Assembly: GCA_017620235.1 (NCBI GenBank)
Contig: JAFZQT010000043.1
Location: 1 to 54,907, forward strand
Length of the DNA stretch: 54,907 nt
Reading direction: 5' to 3'
Origin: Butyrivibrio sp.
Lineage (GTDB): Bacteria > Bacillota > Clostridia > Lachnospirales > Lachnospiraceae
Position numbers and translations under genes: made by a program. Positions 6,897-25,155 of this stretch are shown piece by piece. Numbering within the stretch: the first letter of the stretch is position 1; each line of letters opens with the position of its first letter. The notes under the pieces are model-generated. The model was not told the origin of the DNA, ran no database searches, and saw only the letters and a list, made by a program, of their open reading frames with translations.

Positions 6897-7772
6897 ATGC
6901 AGACATTTAGTCCCGTAAAAGAAGGAAAAGTAAGAGAAATCTACGATATCGGAGAGAACCTTATCATGGTTGCAACAGACAGAATCTCCGCTTTTGACGT
7001 AATTCTCAAGAACAAAGTTACTAAGAAGGGTGCTGTGTTGACCCAGATGTCTAAGTTCTGGTTTGATTTTACCAAGGACATCGTAAACAACCACATGGTA
7101 AGCGTTGATACAAACGATATGCCTGAATTTTTCAGAAGCAAGGATTTTACAGGAAACAGCATGCTTTGCAAAAAGCTCAACATGGTTCCCGTTGAGTGCA
7201 TCGTTCGCGGATATATCACAGGAAGTGGCTGGAACAGCTACAAAGAGAACGGAACCGTTTGCGGAATCAAGCTTCCCGAGGGACTTAAGGAGTGCGACAA
7301 GCTTCCTGAACCCATCTACACTCCCAGCACAAAGGCTGAGATCGGCGATCACGACGAGAACATCGACTTCGATCGCAGCGTAGAAGTTCTTGAAAAGGCA
7401 TTCCCCGGAAAAGGACTTGAGTATGCAACAAAGATCAAGGATTACACAATCGCTCTTTACAAGAAATGTGCTGACTACGCTCTCACTCGCGGAATCATCA
7501 TCGCTGATACAAAGTTCGAGTTCGGTATCGATGAGAACGGCGAAGTTGTACTTGCAGATGAGATGCTCACACCTGACAGCTCACGTTTCTGGCCTGTTGA
7601 CGGCTATGAGCCCGGACACGGTCAGCCTTCATTCGACAAGCAGTTCGTTCGTGACTACTTAAAGGCTAATCCTGAGTGCGACTACAACCTTCCTCAGGAC
7701 GTAATCGACAAGACTATTGCAAAGTACCTTGAAGCTTACAAGCTCCTTACAGGTTCAGAACTTAATGTTTGA
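6897..7772 (+). CDS. purC: Phosphoribosylaminoimidazole-succinocarboxamide synthase
   Basis: A 291-residue SAICAR synthetase, joining CAIR and aspartate with ATP in purine synthesis. The N-terminus reads SPVKEGKVREIYD, with the nucleotide-binding lysine loop; ATDRISAFDV, VECIVRGYITGSGW, the DTKFEFG segment and LADEMLTPDSSRFWP are all conserved in the family. The length fits the longer, eukaryote/Clostridia-type enzyme. An AAGGAGG ribosome site lies a few bases before the ATG. The gene stands alone between two terminators, away from other pur genes. Confidence 0.97.
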   Translation: MQTFSPVKEGKVREIYDIGENLIMVATDRISAFDVILKNKVTKKGAVLTQMSKFWFDFTKDIVNNHMVSVDTNDMPEFFRSKDFTGNSMLCKKLNMVPVECIVRGYITGSGWNSYKENGTVCGIKLPEGLKECDKLPEPIYTPSTKAEIGDHDENIDFDRSVEVLEKAFPGKGLEYATKIKDYTIALYKKCADYALTRGIIIADTKFEFGIDENGEVVLADEMLTPDSSRFWPVDGYEPGHGQPSFDKQFVRDYLKANPECDYNLPQDVIDKTIAKYLEAYKLLTGSELNV

Positions 7773-12305: not shown

Positions 12306-12338
12306 GGGCTAAGCACTTATAGGTGCTTAGCCCTTTAA
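12306..12338. terminator. Bidirectional terminator between HIT gene and lipoprotein gene
   Basis: GGGCTAAGCAC (12306-12316) pairs perfectly with GTGCTTAGCCC (12323-12333), loop of six. The minus strand has TATTTTTATC after it, the plus strand TTTAAATT. Confidence 0.92.
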
Positions 12339-12343
12339 ATTAC

Positions 12344-20096: not shown

Positions 20097-20165
20097 GCAT
20101 CTCTCCTCTGTATCATAGTTTTATATATATTACCATAAATCCCCAAAATCGCTTCACAAAAAATA

Positions 20166-20195
20166 TAGCGTGCCATAGATATCTATAACACGCTA
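20166..20195 (-). terminator. Terminator of the ABC/CPBP operon
   Basis: TAGCGTG (20166-20172) pairs with CACGCTA (20189-20195), with an inner ATAGATATCTAT palindrome; the minus strand continues TATTTTTTGTG. It lies just after the last CPBP gene. Confidence 0.85.
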
Positions 20196-20222
20196 CACTC
20201 TTTTCTAAAACCTATTACATTG

Positions 20223-21047
20223 TCATGCATTGGAAAGCTGTTCTTTATCAACTCCTCTTTTAGCAAATTCACGCTTAAGCTGATAAAATACAACTACTGT
20301 AAGTACCGCACATATTCCCACTTCAATAATATTTCCTAAAAAACTTTCATCATGTACTGTATTATCTAAAACAAAACTTGCTTCCGGATTGACAAAACAT
20401 CCCCAAAAATATGCAGCAAAATCAATTAAACCATGCAAAATTGCGCACACCCAAAAATTATCGGTAATATAATATATGCATGAAAATGAAAAACCAATCA
20501 TAGTAGCATAGCATACCTGCGCAATAGTTGAAATCAATATGTCAGGATTGCCAATCAAATTCATAAAATGCAACAAACCAAACACGAATGATGAAATAAA
20601 TGCCGCCTTTACTATTCCTCTTTGGCTCTCTCCATACTTAAATCTAAATGCATTAAAAAATGCACCTCTGCAAAGCATTTCTTCAAAGAATCCCACTCCC
20701 ATTGTAGCAACAAATACAAAGACTATTCTTGGGATTGCTTGTATAACAGTCATTTCAAGTTTCACATATTTTTCAACCAGATCAAGGATCACATATGCAT
20801 GCATGGTTATACCTGTAACAAAAATCCCTTTTAAAAGATTTTTTGTCTTGAACCTAAAATCAAGTCCACACCACTTAGCCATAAGGACACTTCCCAATAT
20901 AGCAAGAAAATAGCGATTGAACATTTGTAATATATCGCGTGATGACTCAGCTTTAAAAAATACAGATATCAATGTTCCAATAAATATACTCATTATCAGC
21001 ATGATGATTCCAACCAATAAGCCGGATCTAAATTTTTTATTATTCAT
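20223..21047 (-). CDS. CPBP intramembrane metalloprotease (third copy in operon)
   Basis: A 274-residue membrane protein with about eight helices and the three CPBP motifs intact: EEMLCR (EExxxR), FGLLH (FxxxH) and a final ILHGLID. The family includes Rce1-type prenyl-protease relatives, bacteriocin maturation enzymes and bacteriocin self-immunity (PlnI-like) proteins. I start it at MNNKKFRS, which has AGAGGGG seven bases upstream; a longer frame back to 21134 would overlap the previous gene. Last gene of the operon, 19 bases after the second CPBP gene and before a terminator. C-terminus ends ...KRGVDKEQ, near-identical in style to its neighbour, suggesting tandem duplication. Confidence 0.9.
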   Translation of the reverse strand: MNNKKFRSGLLVGIIMLIMSIFIGTLISVFFKAESSRDILQMFNRYFLAILGSVLMAKWCGLDFRFKTKNLLKGIFVTGITMHAYVILDLVEKYVKLEMTVIQAIPRIVFVFVATMGVGFFEEMLCRGAFFNAFRFKYGESQRGIVKAAFISSFVFGLLHFMNLIGNPDILISTIAQVCYATMIGFSFSCIYYITDNFWVCAILHGLIDFAAYFWGCFVNPEASFVLDNTVHDESFLGNIIEVGICAVLTVVVFYQLKREFAKRGVDKEQLSNA

Positions 21048-21066
21048 CCAAGTCCCCTCTCTATGA

Positions 21067-21885
21067 TCAAGCACATAATTTTTCTGTTTTCTTATCAACT
21101 CCTCTTCTATCAAATTCACGGTTAAGCTCGACAACTGCGGCTATTAACACCGGAAGTTGTAACAGCACTACTAAAACACCCGTCATAATAGATATATCTT
21201 CTGCTGCCGGAGTTGCAAAGCATTCCCAAACGAAAGCTGTAAAATCAAAAATACCATGAATCATAATTCCAACCCATAAATTGTCGGTAATATAATATAT
21301 TGCTGCAAAAACACATCCGATCATTGCTGAATAAAAAACCTGTGAAATCGTTGCAACAACAGGTTGCCACAACAGATTTCCCATATGCCATAAACCGAAT
21401 AAAATAGATGAACAAATAATAGCTTTTACAATTCCTTTTTTGCTCTCTCCAAACTTAAATCTAAAAGCATTGAATAATCCGCCTCGCATAAGCATTTCTT
21501 CAAAAAATCCAGTGCCCATTTCATATATAAACATAAATAATACTGTCGGAAGAGCCTGTATAAACGTTCTTTCAAATTCTGAAGGAGCTTTGATAAACAT
21601 ATTAACTATTGCAAGCAGAATAAACATTATAACTGTTCCAATTATCCGTCTTAGATTGCTCTTTTTCTTAAAACTAAAATCGAGCCCACAAAATTTGGTC
21701 AACATGATATATCCAAATATAGCCAACGAATATCTTACTATTGCTATAATAATTTTATCTGCAAATGCATTTTCCATTAGACTTGGAGCTAATGTATAAA
21801 CCAGCCTGGGCACAACACCAAAATCAAACACTAAAAACATAATGATTGTGATTACCAGCGCCGCTATGAATTTTTTATTTTTCAT
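21067..21885 (-). CDS. CPBP intramembrane metalloprotease (second copy)
   Basis: A 272-residue polytopic membrane protein with the CPBP motifs EEMLMR, FGLWH and MIHGIFD. It shares long stretches with the neighbour at 20223 (GTGFFEEM versus GVGFFEEM, NAFRFK-GES, LNREFDRRGVDK versus LKREFAKRGVDK), so the two are recent paralogues. The ATG overlaps the stop of the 36-residue ORF (21882) in an ATGA junction; its own ribosome site is weak, so translation probably depends on that small gene. Role in processing or immunity is inferred from family and context. Confidence 0.9.
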   Translation of the reverse strand: MKNKKFIAALVITIIMFLVFDFGVVPRLVYTLAPSLMENAFADKIIIAIVRYSLAIFGYIMLTKFCGLDFSFKKKSNLRRIIGTVIMFILLAIVNMFIKAPSEFERTFIQALPTVLFMFIYEMGTGFFEEMLMRGGLFNAFRFKFGESKKGIVKAIICSSILFGLWHMGNLLWQPVVATISQVFYSAMIGCVFAAIYYITDNLWVGIMIHGIFDFTAFVWECFATPAAEDISIMTGVLVVLLQLPVLIAAVVELNREFDRRGVDKKTEKLCA

Positions 21886-21992
21886 CTAAGTTTGCCCCAT
21901 TTTCTTTCAGGAAACATCGATCTTTTTGTCACTACCAGCGCAAATATTCCTATTATCGTAAACAAAAATCCTTTTAATATATTTTTTATCAT
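21882..21992 (-). CDS. Small single-pass membrane peptide, 36 residues
   Basis: Not a long ORF, but well supported: ATG at 21992 with AAGGGG nine bases after which the upstream gene stops and at usual distance from the start, a 36-codon frame, and a TGA that overlaps the ATG of the next CPBP gene (ATGA). The peptide starts MIKNILKGFLF, has one hydrophobic helix (about residues 8-22) and a basic tail (KRSMFPERKWGKLR). It may be a substrate, an immunity peptide, a partner subunit of the proteases, or only a coupling ORF. I do not recognise a family. It fills what would otherwise be a 115-base gap between two coupled genes. Confidence 0.7.
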   Translation of the reverse strand: MIKNILKGFLFTIIGIFALVVTKRSMFPERKWGKLR

Positions 21993-22000
21993 TTAAATTT

Positions 22001-22822
22001 TCACCCCTTCTCATATCTCTCTATACATTTTTCAAGCTTTGAATCTCTTATAAGGAAAAGACCTATCGCAAACGTAATAACTGTAATAGCAAATCCCTTA
22101 AGAATAATAGCCTCAGGTCCAAGCCACTCTACTATACAATTATTCAATCCGCCAAGTCCTATATTTCTAAAAATAAGGTAATAATTCATGATTGCAAGAT
22201 CAAAAATCGCATGAAGCACTGCACATAACCAGATATTTCCACAACGAATATAAATTGCATTAATTAAGAAACCTATTCCGATAGCATATAAAACCTGTGC
22301 ATATATAGGGGCTGGATTTACACCTTCATGAAGGTTCGTAAGATGAATCGCTCCAAATGCAAGAGAAGACATGGTCATCGCTGTAATAATTCCAGCCTTT
22401 GTGTTTCCAATTGCAGATCTGAAAAAGTTAAAAAGAACTCCTCTTGTTAAAAACTCCTCTCCACATCCTGCTCCGATAAAAATTGCAATCACAAAAAGTA
22501 TGATTTCTTTAGTCTCCATAAGTGGCGTTCCAAAATCCATTATTGCTTTGATCATGTAGTATATTAAATAAAAAGCTGTTATTGCAACGAAAGCTCCGCC
22601 TGCAACAATACCTTCTCCACAACTCTTTAAGCTGAAACGCAATGAATCTTTCAACCCAAATGCAAGCGAAAATGCTATACAAGTCACTACTGTCAACGTT
22701 GAATGAAGCATGTAATCAACCACATCATTGCCTGTTATTATATGAGGATCAATAAAAAGTACCTCTGCAAAATAAACAACTATAAACAATACAATTCCTA
22801 TCCAATACTTTGCTTTCTTCAT
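22001..22822 (-). CDS. CPBP intramembrane metalloprotease (first copy)
   Basis: A 273-residue membrane protein with about eight helices and the catalytic motifs EEFLTR, FGAIH and VLHAIFD. It is more distant from the other two copies than they are from each other. TAAGGAGG precedes the ATG. Its last codons (GAG AAG GGG TGA) double as the ribosome site for the 36-residue peptide downstream. Twelve bases separate it from the DUF4097 gene upstream, so it is in the same operon as the ABC transporter. Confidence 0.9.
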   Translation of the reverse strand: MKKAKYWIGIVLFIVVYFAEVLFIDPHIITGNDVVDYMLHSTLTVVTCIAFSLAFGLKDSLRFSLKSCGEGIVAGGAFVAITAFYLIYYMIKAIMDFGTPLMETKEIILFVIAIFIGAGCGEEFLTRGVLFNFFRSAIGNTKAGIITAMTMSSLAFGAIHLTNLHEGVNPAPIYAQVLYAIGIGFLINAIYIRCGNIWLCAVLHAIFDLAIMNYYLIFRNIGLGGLNNCIVEWLGPEAIILKGFAITVITFAIGLFLIRDSKLEKCIERYEKG

Positions 22823-22834
22823 TTGTCTTCCTCC

Positions 22835-23470
22835 TTATAGTTTTTGTCCATTCACGGTAACATCTCCATCATTGGTATTCACAGTAATTTTATTTTGATC
22901 AACTTCTTCGGGCGTATTGATGGTCACATCTCCATAATTTGAAATATCCGCCCTAAAGCTTGTAAACGTTGCTCCATTCATATTTATGTCACCCTCTTTA
23001 AGGGTAAAGATCATATTCTCACCTTGAACGTCTGTCACTTTAACGTCGCCATCATCTAAAATAATGTCCATATTGCTAAGCACCGTTCCCTTAGGTACTA
23101 TCACTTTCGATGTAAAAGAATCCTCTTTAGTATTTATCCTTACAGAAAATGTCTTCTTCGGAATTAATTGAGTGATATTAAGGACTCCATTTTCAAGTGT
23201 TACACTTGGCATCTCCTCGTCAGAAAATCTTGAAATAACTTCCAGCTTATCTCCATATTCAAATTCCAGACGTCCGTACTCCATATTGACCTTAACTTCT
23301 TTTATCTCAGCATCGCCAAACTTCTTTTCATCTGTTCTAAATTTGCCATTACTGGAATTGACATATTCAACTTCCGGAATATGTTTCATACCAACAGAAA
23401 TTCCCACAGCAATCCCCACAAAGATCAAAGCCGAAATAACAGCAATAATTGGCATTGAATAATTTTTCAT
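22835..23470 (-). CDS. DUF4097-family beta-strand repeat protein
   Basis: A 211-residue protein with an N-terminal membrane helix (about residues 6-26) and a regular beta-solenoid-like region. In it, strands repeat with a D-G-D-V/D-G-x-I pattern: MDIILDDGDVKVTDVQGENM, LKEGDINMNGA, ISNYGDVTINT and NTNDGDVTVNG. DUF4097 proteins are often encoded with ABC transporters or PspC/LiaF-like envelope-stress proteins, and probably sense or scaffold at the outer face of the membrane. AGAGGAGAG precedes the start. Twenty-two bases after the permease gene, so in the same operon. Confidence 0.85.
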   Translation of the reverse strand: MKNYSMPIIAVISALIFVGIAVGISVGMKHIPEVEYVNSSNGKFRTDEKKFGDAEIKEVKVNMEYGRLEFEYGDKLEVISRFSDEEMPSVTLENGVLNITQLIPKKTFSVRINTKEDSFTSKVIVPKGTVLSNMDIILDDGDVKVTDVQGENMIFTLKEGDINMNGATFTSFRADISNYGDVTINTPEEVDQNKITVNTNDGDVTVNGQKL

Positions 23471-23492
23471 AACTACTCTCCTCTCTTTCTAT

Positions 23493-24236
23493 TTAGAACG
23501 TATCTCTCTTTCTGAAAATGTTTGCACCGATCAATGAATATACAGCAAACAAAATAATTCCTACACATAACACTTCAATATACGGACAGTCGCCTCCACT
23601 CATTGCTATTCCTTTTGTCAGAGCTACAACCTGAAATGTATTGGGAGACACTGCCTCAAATACAGGTCTCAATGCAGGAATAGCTTCGGCAGCACGCCCT
23701 GCAAGCGCATTTATGATCATGCAATGCATTCCTCCGGAAAACATGATTGCTGTAACAATGGGTGCAACCATTCCTCTTGCCAGCTCATAGATAGCCATGA
23801 ATCCGACTCCAAAACCTGTGAGTAAAAGAACCTGAATCATAAAAAATAGAATCGCGTTAAATACGTTAAACCCTGCAAAAGCAGCGGGATCATTTATTAG
23901 TCCGATAGCAATGGAAAAAACTGCAATAAAGAGAATGATAACTGAATAAAGCGCAATAGCGGGAATCTTGGCAAAAAACACATTTCTTTTTTTCTCTTTG
24001 GAAGTCTCAAGATTCTTAAGAAATCCGCTCTTTCTCTCTTCATCGCTATACACTGCCGAAAAGATTCCGACCATTGAAAGTGAAAAACTTACTGCTATTT
24101 CATCAACCAATCCTACGAAGTCTCCTCCGACAAAGAATCCAATCATAAAGAGCATTGCAAATGTAATGACTGATGTGATATACAATGCCTTAGTTTTAAA
24201 TAGTCTGGTTATATTCATATCTATAAGATTTAACAT
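23493..24236 (-). CDS. ABC-2 type transporter permease
   Basis: A 247-residue membrane protein with six hydrophobic helices (near residues 18-36, 45-60, 95-115, 128-150, 155-175 and 222-240). It resembles the permease subunits of lantibiotic-immunity (LanEFG) and BcrB-type systems, which push peptides or drugs off the membrane. Its start overlaps the stop of the ATPase gene by seven bases (ATGTTAA), a sign of tight coupling. Only one permease gene is present, so the working transporter is probably a homodimer. Confidence 0.87.
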   Translation of the reverse strand: MLNLIDMNITRLFKTKALYITSVITFAMLFMIGFFVGGDFVGLVDEIAVSFSLSMVGIFSAVYSDEERKSGFLKNLETSKEKKRNVFFAKIPAIALYSVIILFIAVFSIAIGLINDPAAFAGFNVFNAILFFMIQVLLLTGFGVGFMAIYELARGMVAPIVTAIMFSGGMHCMIINALAGRAAEAIPALRPVFEAVSPNTFQVVALTKGIAMSGGDCPYIEVLCVGIILFAVYSLIGANIFRKRDTF

Positions 24237-24949
24237 GCTTTTCTTCCTTTCCTTACAACATCAAGATAAAACTCTTCAAGTGAATCCGAATCTCCCGAGC
24301 ATCTTTCTCTGAGCTCCTCATTTGTTATCTCCATAATGAGTTCGCCGCCTGAGATTATGCCAAATACATTTGCGACCTTCTGAAGCTCACCAAGAATATG
24401 GCTTGATATCATAATGGTCATATTTCTCTCTTCTTTAAGTCTTAAGATAAGCTCTCTTACTTCGATGATTCCCTGTGGATCAAGACCGTTTATCGGCTCG
24501 TCCAGGATAAGGATCTCAGGATCTCCGAGGAGCGCTAAGGCAATTCCAAGCCTCTGCTTCATACCAAGTGAAAACTTACCGGCTTTCTTATTACCTGCTC
24601 CCGAAAGTCCTACAAAATCGAGTAGCTCAAGTATTTCCTTTTTGTCGTATACGCCAAGCGCCTTAGCCTTTAGCATCATATTGTCGAAGGCATCCAGATG
24701 CCCGTAGATTCCGGGGCTCTCGATGAGATTTCCAATTTTCTTCGTGCCCTGCGTTTCATCTATCAAAATCTCGCCGCTCGTAGGATTGGCAAAACCGATT
24801 ATCATCTTCATAAGTGTTGTCTTTCCGGCACCGTTTGGACCGATAAGACCATAAATATCACCTTTTTCCAAATGTACATTCATATTTTTTACAGCTTCAA
24901 AAGATCTGTAGCGTTTGTTCAAATTCTTTGTTTCCAAGTAATAAGCCAT
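24230..24949 (-). CDS. ABC transporter ATP-binding protein (BcrA/LanF type)
   Basis: A 239-residue nucleotide-binding subunit with all motifs intact: Walker A GPNGAGKTTL, signature in FSLGMKQRLGIALAL, Walker B ILILDEPINGLDP and H-loop SSHIL. The FSLGMKQRL form of the signature and the GLDPQGI segment are typical of the bacitracin (BcrA) and lantibiotic-immunity (LanF) branch. It is the first gene of a seven-gene operon. The promoter 95-125 bases upstream is overlaid with TAGTA-type inverted repeats (24995-25072), a pattern seen with GntR/YtrA-type control of such transporters, though no such regulator gene lies nearby. Confidence 0.92.
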   Translation of the reverse strand: MAYYLETKNLNKRYRSFEAVKNMNVHLEKGDIYGLIGPNGAGKTTLMKMIIGFANPTSGEILIDETQGTKKIGNLIESPGIYGHLDAFDNMMLKAKALGVYDKKEILELLDFVGLSGAGNKKAGKFSLGMKQRLGIALALLGDPEILILDEPINGLDPQGIIEVRELILRLKEERNMTIMISSHILGELQKVANVFGIISGGELIMEITNEELRERCSGDSDSLEEFYLDVVRKGRKAC

Positions 24950-24994
24950 TTCATCCCTCTTTTCTATTTAATACTTCTTCTATACTCCATTTAT

Positions 24995-25072
24995 AATAGT
25001 ACTACTGATATAGTACTATTGTCGTACTACTACTGTCATAGTATTTATACTACGTCAGACAAAGTATGTCAA
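24995..25072 (-). promoter_or_regulatory. Strong promoter of the ABC/CPBP operon with TAGTA inverted repeats
   Basis: Minus strand: TTGACA (25067-25072), exactly 17 bases, TATAAA (25044-25049); start expected near 25037. One inverted repeat, TAGTAT-TT-ATACTA (25039-25052), covers the -10. A second, AATAGTAC-10-GTACTATT (24995-25020), lies in the transcribed leader. Further GTACTAC half-sites sit between (25024-25033). The density of TAGTA half-sites points to a dimeric repressor. Confidence 0.8.
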
Positions 25073-25100
25073 CCCAATTTGGAAAAAAAGTAAAAAAAAA

Positions 25101-25126
25101 GAAAGCAGCTCACTAATTCTGCTTTC
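25101..25126 (-). terminator. Terminator of the maf/HAD gene group
   Basis: GAAAGCAG (25101-25108) pairs with CTGCTTTC (25119-25126); the minus strand continues with nine T. Confidence 0.9.
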
Positions 25127-25155
25127 TTAAACATCATTTATTTACGCATAATATG

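Follow-up and report, generated by a model that had tools for sequence, protein, structure and literature searches.

Among the described systems that come closest to the locus reported here, the LltR operon of Listeria, lltR-lmo0600-lmo0601, encodes a PadR regulator together with a DUF1700 and a DUF4097 protein and is autoregulated, and, according to the cited parts of that study, an ABC transporter, LiaI/LiaH and a second DUF4097 protein were raised 2.4 to 3.8-fold in an lltR mutant (PMC6624303). The same parts describe LftR, a PadR repressor of the LieAB pump, which is induced by the depsipeptide aurantimycin (PMC6624303). In the PSP survey, as far as its cited parts go, the PadR-HAAS dyad plus Toastrack (DUF4097) was proposed to act in membrane-stress signalling, and in some operons Toastrack was found with an ABC ATPase and permease beside a GntR regulator (PMC11237479). 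CPBP proteases have been linked with the processing or reception of bacteriocins or with immunity to them, catalysis being dispensable in some of the cases covered by the cited parts of the source (PMC9298176). Here we analysed a minus-strand operon of seven genes from a Butyrivibrio-genus genome, which encodes, in this order, an ABC ATPase, a permease, a DUF4097 protein, a first CPBP protease (CPBP1), a 36-codon open reading frame (ORF36) and two further CPBP proteases (CPBP2 and CPBP3). It lies in contig C59, whose 54,907 nucleotides (54.9 kb) were analysed as a whole and are called the window below; the source assembly comprises 2.70 Mb in 144 contigs and is 86.4% complete. Genomes compared, fetched loci and contigs are labeled G, L and C, respectively, followed by a number. 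To our knowledge, CPBP as well as DUF4097/HAAS proteins occur commonly in bacteria, and for most of them no trigger has been defined.

Judged from its sequence, the operon is likely to belong, as one of several outputs, to an envelope-stress regulon of the PadR/HAAS-Toastrack type, which probably responds to membrane-active peptides. The informative feature is a set of four 19-bp dyads (TACTACGACWGTCGTAGTA) that cover the promoter in tandem with spacings of 14, 14 and 23 and on which the first-pass annotation of this DNA was silent. A DNA search of the source genome revealed sequences resembling this promoter DNA at three further places. With two mismatches allowed, the dyad pattern matched in 12 of 40 relatives, ten of the same genus and two of other families (G028 and G037), and in each of the ten genus genomes a padR gene is located directly downstream of a pattern match. 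However, a reversed control pattern also matched, 23 times compared with 27 for the true pattern in 41 genomes, and therefore the position of the sites rather than their number represents the evidence.

Using protein homology only, PadR orthologs (identity of at least 69%) were identified in 55 of the 79 genus genomes, two of them with an in-frame TAG. Thirty padR loci were fetched by homology, and in 28 of these padR was located by script (L122 and L126 were left out). The site is present in all 28 placed padR upstream regions, with at least two sites in 27 of them, and a matrix-free count of the 7-mer CGTAGTA likewise gave 27 of 28. A palindromic 19-bp matrix was built from 33 distinct padR upstream regions (28 obtained by homology and 5 by pattern search), none of which stems from the source genome; all 33 show the layout TTGAC[AT]-N16-18-TATATT, usually with a dyad in the spacer. 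When the window was scanned with this matrix, dyads 2, 1, 3 and 4 of Table 1 took the first four ranks in this order and the next best position reached 10.2 bits, while the best score over 30 first-order resamples of the window was 9.2 bits on average and 17.5 at the highest. The matrix derived from the 28 homology-fetched regions alone recovered the same four dyads (24.5, 24.2, 19.6 and 19.0 bits; next 9.1). From this we conclude that the operon promoter carries the same predicted operator as the padR genes of its relatives.

Table 1 Features of the operon and its control region in the window.
Feature	Position	Strand	Evidence
ABC transporter ATPase, BcrA/LanF-like	24230..24949	-	PF00005 (ABC_tran) 102 bits; TIGR03740 247.3 bits, below cut-off 309.75
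ABC-2 permease	23493..24236	-	PF12730 (ABC2_membrane_4) 27.1 bits, cut-off 27.0; 7-base overlap with ATPase gene
DUF4097 (Toastrack) protein	22835..23470	-	PF13349 38.5 bits, cut-off 22.9; N-terminal hydrophobic stretch (by eye)
CPBP1 intramembrane protease (predicted)	22001..22822	-	PF02517 64.7 bits, cut-off 22.4
36-codon ORF, one hydrophobic stretch (by eye)	21882..21992	-	reading frame only; no Pfam match
CPBP2 intramembrane protease (predicted)	21067..21885	-	PF02517 68.6 bits, cut-off 22.4
CPBP3 intramembrane protease (predicted)	20223..21047	-	PF02517 64.5 bits, cut-off 22.4
Sigma-70-type promoter TTGACA-N17-TATAAA	25044..25072	-	sequence; -35 TTGACA 25072-25067, -10 TATAAA 25049-25044
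Operator dyad 1 (predicted)	25048..25066	.	padR-trained motif, 24.0 bits; fills promoter spacer
Operator dyad 2 (predicted)	25025..25043	.	padR-trained motif, 24.3 bits
Operator dyad 3 (predicted)	25011..25029	.	padR-trained motif, 20.1 bits
Operator dyad 4 (predicted)	24997..25015	.	padR-trained motif, 18.8 bits
Intrinsic terminator of operon	20158..20203	-	-26.6 kcal/mol, z -7.7
Hairpin and T run after upstream HAD gene	25099..25128	-	-11.7 kcal/mol, z -1.7; as stable in 10 of 200 shuffles

The operator is shared by a variety of genes. Sites were accepted in the fetched loci at 13 bits or more; some of these loci were fetched for having a site, and the following list is thus not a census. 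At the 16 large padR loci (10 found by pattern and six by homology), a HAAS-like gene follows padR in every case and a DUF4097 gene does so in nine. All eight HAAS-like proteins tested match NF038403 (36.4-50.3 bits, cut-off 30), and the one from G016 hit no Pfam family at 0.01. Sites precede the ATPase operons in both G024 and G090 as well as an operon of G075 that encodes a 543-residue membrane protein, an ATPase and a permease. They are also found at the CPBP arrays of these three genomes, including three internal operators in G075, and at single CPBP genes in G016, G058, the source genome (C106) and G090, the latter with two cases, one of which is followed by a gene for a 540-residue membrane protein. 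Genes for PAP2 phosphatases carry the site in the source genome, G016 and G058, with a CPBP gene following in the last two, and M13 peptidase genes carry it in the source genome, G016, G044, G058, G075 and G089, where the first frame of G089 has only 158 codons. MacB-type genes (by eye) accompany the site-bearing M13 peptidase gene in the source genome and G016, and MacAB-like sets are preceded by sites in G016, G044, G058 and G089; the G016 adaptor scores 131.9 bits against TIGR01730 (cut-off 94.9), and its ATPase is best matched by MacB, below the cut-off. Finally, sites are located at genes for a 545-residue membrane protein (source genome, G058, G089, G075 and G090; an alpha/beta hydrolase gene is next in the source genome and G089) and at lone alpha/beta hydrolase genes of the source genome (C105), G044 (by Pfam) and G090 (by eye). 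The CPBP arrays of G024 and G090 are adjoined by BceRSAB-like genes (by eye) for a response regulator, a kinase and an ABC pair.

In a pattern census of ten genomes, which provides a fairer count, 63 sites fell into 43 clusters, and a CPBP gene is located within 5 kb of 11 of these clusters compared with 1.54 expected if the 114 CPBP genes were placed at random, for which the nominal binomial probability of 2e-7 ignores kinship and contig ends, so that the true strength is less. The cargo under the operator is modular, with CPBPs in the source operon and alpha/beta hydrolases in the sister operons. It is possible, and we propose this only tentatively, that one PadR commands a dispersed and expanding CPBP set (duplicated arrays, singles and transporter-linked genes, all controlled by tandem operators that are nearly identical), which would represent an inducible repertoire for degrading or disarming membrane-inserted peptides.

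Some further observations were made at loci that carry sites. In G075 (C21; L169 3069-7602), two very similar M13-type peptidase genes of 713 codons each are located inside the CPBP array, and L169 harbors three near-identical operators at 1128-1160, 7662-7694 and 12310-12342, which together suggest a recent tandem duplication. The sites at C106:25600 of the source genome (L029 5599-5863) fall between the gene of a membrane protein of 544 residues and a lysozyme-like gene (GH25-type by eye) in divergent orientation, and this pair recurs with sites in G058 and G089 (L196 6296-6550; L201 5380-5631); in G016 (L195), a different gene of 581 residues faces the lysozyme-like gene. At least seven pilin-like genes are arranged in a row on the minus strand of G024 (L166 1-3168; GFTLAELLIVVAIIAVLVAVAIPVFTAQL), roughly 5 kb away from the CPBP array of this genome. 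A GntR/YtrA-type gene beside the site on C24 of the source genome was considered and discarded. Since a CPBP gene is located on the opposite side of the corresponding G016 site, the C24 site is read as serving the other direction, where an MBL-fold-like gene is located about 250 bases off in the source genome.

In the mechanism that we propose, the regulon would be run by an autoregulated PadR, whose gene comes first in an operon of other Butyrivibrio and is joined there by a HAAS-like DUF1700-type gene and often by a DUF4097 gene; this PadR would keep the seven-gene operon off by occupying the tandem 19-bp dyads in or just downstream of the promoter spacer. We infer repression because the sites cover the promoter and the same sites stand at padR, and because the Listeria PadR proteins repress and autoregulate according to the cited parts of the source (PMC6624303). 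Perturbation of the envelope by a membrane-active molecule, for which a peptide antibiotic of rumen competitors is the likeliest candidate, would release PadR, either by direct ligand binding or via HAAS/Toastrack. The ABC exporter might then take the molecule out of the membrane and the CPBPs might cut either the peptide or membrane proteins that have been damaged, with the Toastrack protein co-expressed as a feedback component; the other site-bearing loci would supply PAP2, M13 peptidase and Mac-type exporters at the same time.

Several results weigh against this interpretation. The padR and HAAS genes are absent from the source assembly, in which the search for PadR orthologs found only a 34% paralog at C1:3543. 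The absence is most simply accounted for by an assembly gap, which is not proof: contig C115 of the source genome matches the padR neighbourhood of G016 at 93% up to 25149, its last base, about 2.3 kb short of padR, and all other matches of the source genome to this G016 stretch span 130 bases or less. Furthermore, the ten-genome census is noisy, with 40 reversed-control sites against the 63 pattern sites. The ratio is 19 to 55 in G000, G016, G089, G058, G044 and G075, and the control is even commoner than the pattern (21 vs 8) in G024, G090, G001 and G043. Within the census, G089, G044, G024, G001 and G043 have no CPBP gene near a pattern site (the G024 array was seen by the motif scan only), and 16 of the 114 CPBP genes are near sites, so that most CPBP genes of the ten genomes lie elsewhere. 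Likewise, a scan of 20 permease loci from farther afield, of which only 15 hold at least 200 bases before the ATPase gene, found no operator (highest score 10.8 bits), and the ABC pair is therefore not generally tied to the operator. Lastly, it is by analogy that the signal would be a peptide.

On this last point, a serious if rather improbable rival is that rumen compounds other than peptides, such as long-chain fatty acids or phenolic acids, cause the membrane stress to which the regulon responds; CPBPs, PAP2 and hydrolases would then remodel the proteins and lipids of the membrane, and the ABC pair would move a lipid. PadR repressors respond to phenolic acids or to drugs such as daunorubicin, as mentioned in the cited parts of PMC6624303, and the toxicity of unsaturated fatty acids to Butyrivibrio is a published subject (PMC2836310, cited in part). 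In addition, PAP2 phosphatase and alpha/beta hydrolases are among the regulon members, and the closest PDB entries to the operon ATPase are lipid-moving ABCA proteins. However, the best family of this ATPase is the lantibiotic-protection subfamily, though under its cut-off, and the MacAB-like and BceRSAB-like genes (the latter by eye) point to peptides or drugs. Moreover, genes for an apparent sensor kinase and response regulator come after the ABC pair in several other Lachnospiraceae, a layout that we take to be that of peptide-immunity transporters.

The operon itself is confirmed as real and well delimited between the promoter and the terminator listed in Table 1, although a generic promoter and terminator scan of the window listed neither of them and gave counts not above chance (24 vs 25.3 and 7 vs 5.3). 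All seven frames were found where the first-pass annotation had placed them, and their spacing suggests a single transcript. Six of the seven proteins pass Pfam cut-offs, the permease by 0.1 bit. The overlap between the ATPase and permease genes and the DUF4097 protein were verified as well. An assignment of the ATPase as BcrA/LanF-like was borne out in that TIGR03740 (lantibiotic protection) is its best match among 201 families and LIESPGIY occupies the Q-loop position (by eye), but the curated cut-off is not reached. The permease scores 17.1 bits against TIGR03733, below the cut-off of 117.2, and is the only permease encoded in the operon. The catalytic motifs of the CPBPs, described before as intact, are invariant in an alignment of the three proteins with one relative (E129 E130 R134, F163..H167 and H210..D214; EExxxR, FxxxH and HxxxD). 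By score and motifs the three proteins belong to the PF02517 (Rce1-like/type II CAAX-like) family, and none of them matches a PDB sequence even with E values of up to 1 allowed. CPBP1 is closest to the array CPBPs of G090 and G024, with an identity of up to 67%; since the deep forks in a tree of 22 CPBPs are weakly supported, no claim is made on the origin of CPBP2 and CPBP3.

Conservation of the gene order, on the other hand, did not hold up to the test that had been named for it. The permease is present in 16 of the 79 genus genomes. The other 15 of these 16 were all read at least in part, with contigs that break off close by in some of them, and in none do DUF4097 and then CPBP genes come after the permease. 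Searches via DUF4097, permease and DNA synteny did not find the seven-gene order elsewhere, and the exact order is thus seen only in the source genome. In G024 and G090, the ATPase and permease genes are followed by hydrolase genes, with DUF4097 last in G024 and no DUF4097 in G090; in G075, the ATPase, permease and hydrolase genes end at a contig border and DUF4097 follows a hydrolase piece on another contig, and we infer that the two pieces belong to one operon. The CPBP genes of these three genomes form arrays at other loci, under operators of their own. The operon is flanked by HAD and PHP genes. In nine of 17 relatives (G014, G024, G045, G050, G064, G066, G067, G073 and G090) the gap between these two genes measures 4-182 bases, and in six (G016, G089, G058, G044, G001 and G043) they enclose different DNA of 2.2-3.6 kb; in G075 they lie on two contigs, and in G055 they are rearranged. 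This slot (window 20107-25148) is an insertion hotspot. The cargo of the six filled slots comprises, by eye, small ORFs, a sigma factor with an ABC gene, a solute-binding and a chemoreceptor-like protein, and UbiA-like genes.

In a further reading, which follows the earlier proposal of ORF36 as substrate, immunity factor or subunit, the operon is a peptide-processing and self-immunity module with ORF36 as substrate, bacteriocin or immunity factor; we consider this very unlikely. ORF36 does have a good ribosome site (AAGGGG) in front of it, it is coupled to CPBP2 as previously stated, with a 4-base overlap between its TGA and the start codon ATG of CPBP2, it encodes one hydrophobic stretch, and CAAX/CPBP proteases often occur in bacteriocin clusters according to the cited parts of PMC9298176. 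However, the fetched loci contain no credible relative of ORF36; the best other match, with an E value of 0.037, falls within a permease. It is also lacking from the CPBP arrays of G024, G090 and G075, and related CPBPs stand under the same switch without it. Among the operon proteins no modification enzyme was detected by Pfam, in agreement with the first-pass annotation, nor was a leader-peptidase gene, and with ORF36 as the sole candidate the operon does not qualify as a bacteriocin biosynthesis cluster. Between CPBP-A and CPBP-B, the place of ORF36 is taken by a proline-iminopeptidase-like hydrolase gene in G090 and by 51 bases in G024, and such a hydrolase gene also follows a CPBP-A in G075. 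When the ORF36 N-terminus was compared with 285 membrane-start proteins, the hydrolase of G075 ranked second (block-shuffle 0.006) and that of G090 fourth (0.0135), with an unrelated protein tying for first. ORF36 might therefore be a deletion remnant of the hydrolase gene, a reading that these similarities make conceivable rather than probable; it may be expressed, but is probably incidental to the operon. What stands of the earlier proposal is peptide or envelope defence as such, which has become likelier from the genes sharing the switch (PadR-HAAS-DUF4097, LanF/BcrA-like ABC, MacAB-like, PAP2, M13 and CPBP genes), while neither conservation of the gene order nor a role of ORF36 found support.

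A BlaI/MecI-type repressor with a beta-lactam-type regulon, which was our first idea from the shape of the dyads, was dropped once the padR upstream regions showed the site and is now hardly credible. The core TACTAC-N4-GTAGTA does resemble bla/mec operators and two BlaI genes exist in the source genome, but no site of at least 13 bits is present at the two BlaI loci (L030 and L031) as opposed to a site at all placed padR upstream regions. On C110 of the source genome (L031 1039-9786), four M56/BlaR1-like genes (by eye) are interleaved with small lipoprotein-like genes and accompanied by one BlaI gene, with no PadR site.

The shared operator joins a PadR switch, Toastrack/HAAS proteins, CPBPs and antimicrobial-type exporters in one predicted circuit of rumen bacteria. 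If an inducible CPBP repertoire indeed exists, it would constitute an intramembrane-protease defence layer that is apparently undescribed in the literature on PadR, CPBP/CAAX proteases and DUF4097, judged from its listings; at the level of titles and listings, no work evidently links PadR with CPBP/CAAX proteases, and none on Butyrivibrio PadR was on point. Named isolates exist, and inducer, repressor binding and protease targets are thus directly testable.

Compared with the LanFEG/BcrAB transporters, the operon ATPase is nearest to TIGR03740, its gene overlaps that of the permease, and it carries a glutamate at the Q-loop position, an E-loop that we take to be typical of this class; it differs in remaining under the curated cut-off, in its single permease and in the lack of lantibiotic or bacitracin genes. 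The PSP survey, in contrast to the circuit proposed here, is a neighbourhood survey, and its cited parts describe no trans-acting operator or CPBP outputs (PMC11237479). With LftR-LieAB, the regulon would share PadR control of an antibiotic efflux pump expressed on contact with a depsipeptide antibiotic, whereas no DUF4097, CPBP or hydrolase cargo is mentioned for the Listeria system in the cited parts of its source. LltR controls mainly its own operon, with no CPBPs mentioned in the parts cited, while in Butyrivibrio several scattered operons with tandem dyads appear to be involved; nevertheless, both systems have at their center what is, or in Butyrivibrio is predicted to be, a PadR repressor that controls its own operon and is partnered by DUF1700 and DUF4097 proteins (PMC6624303).

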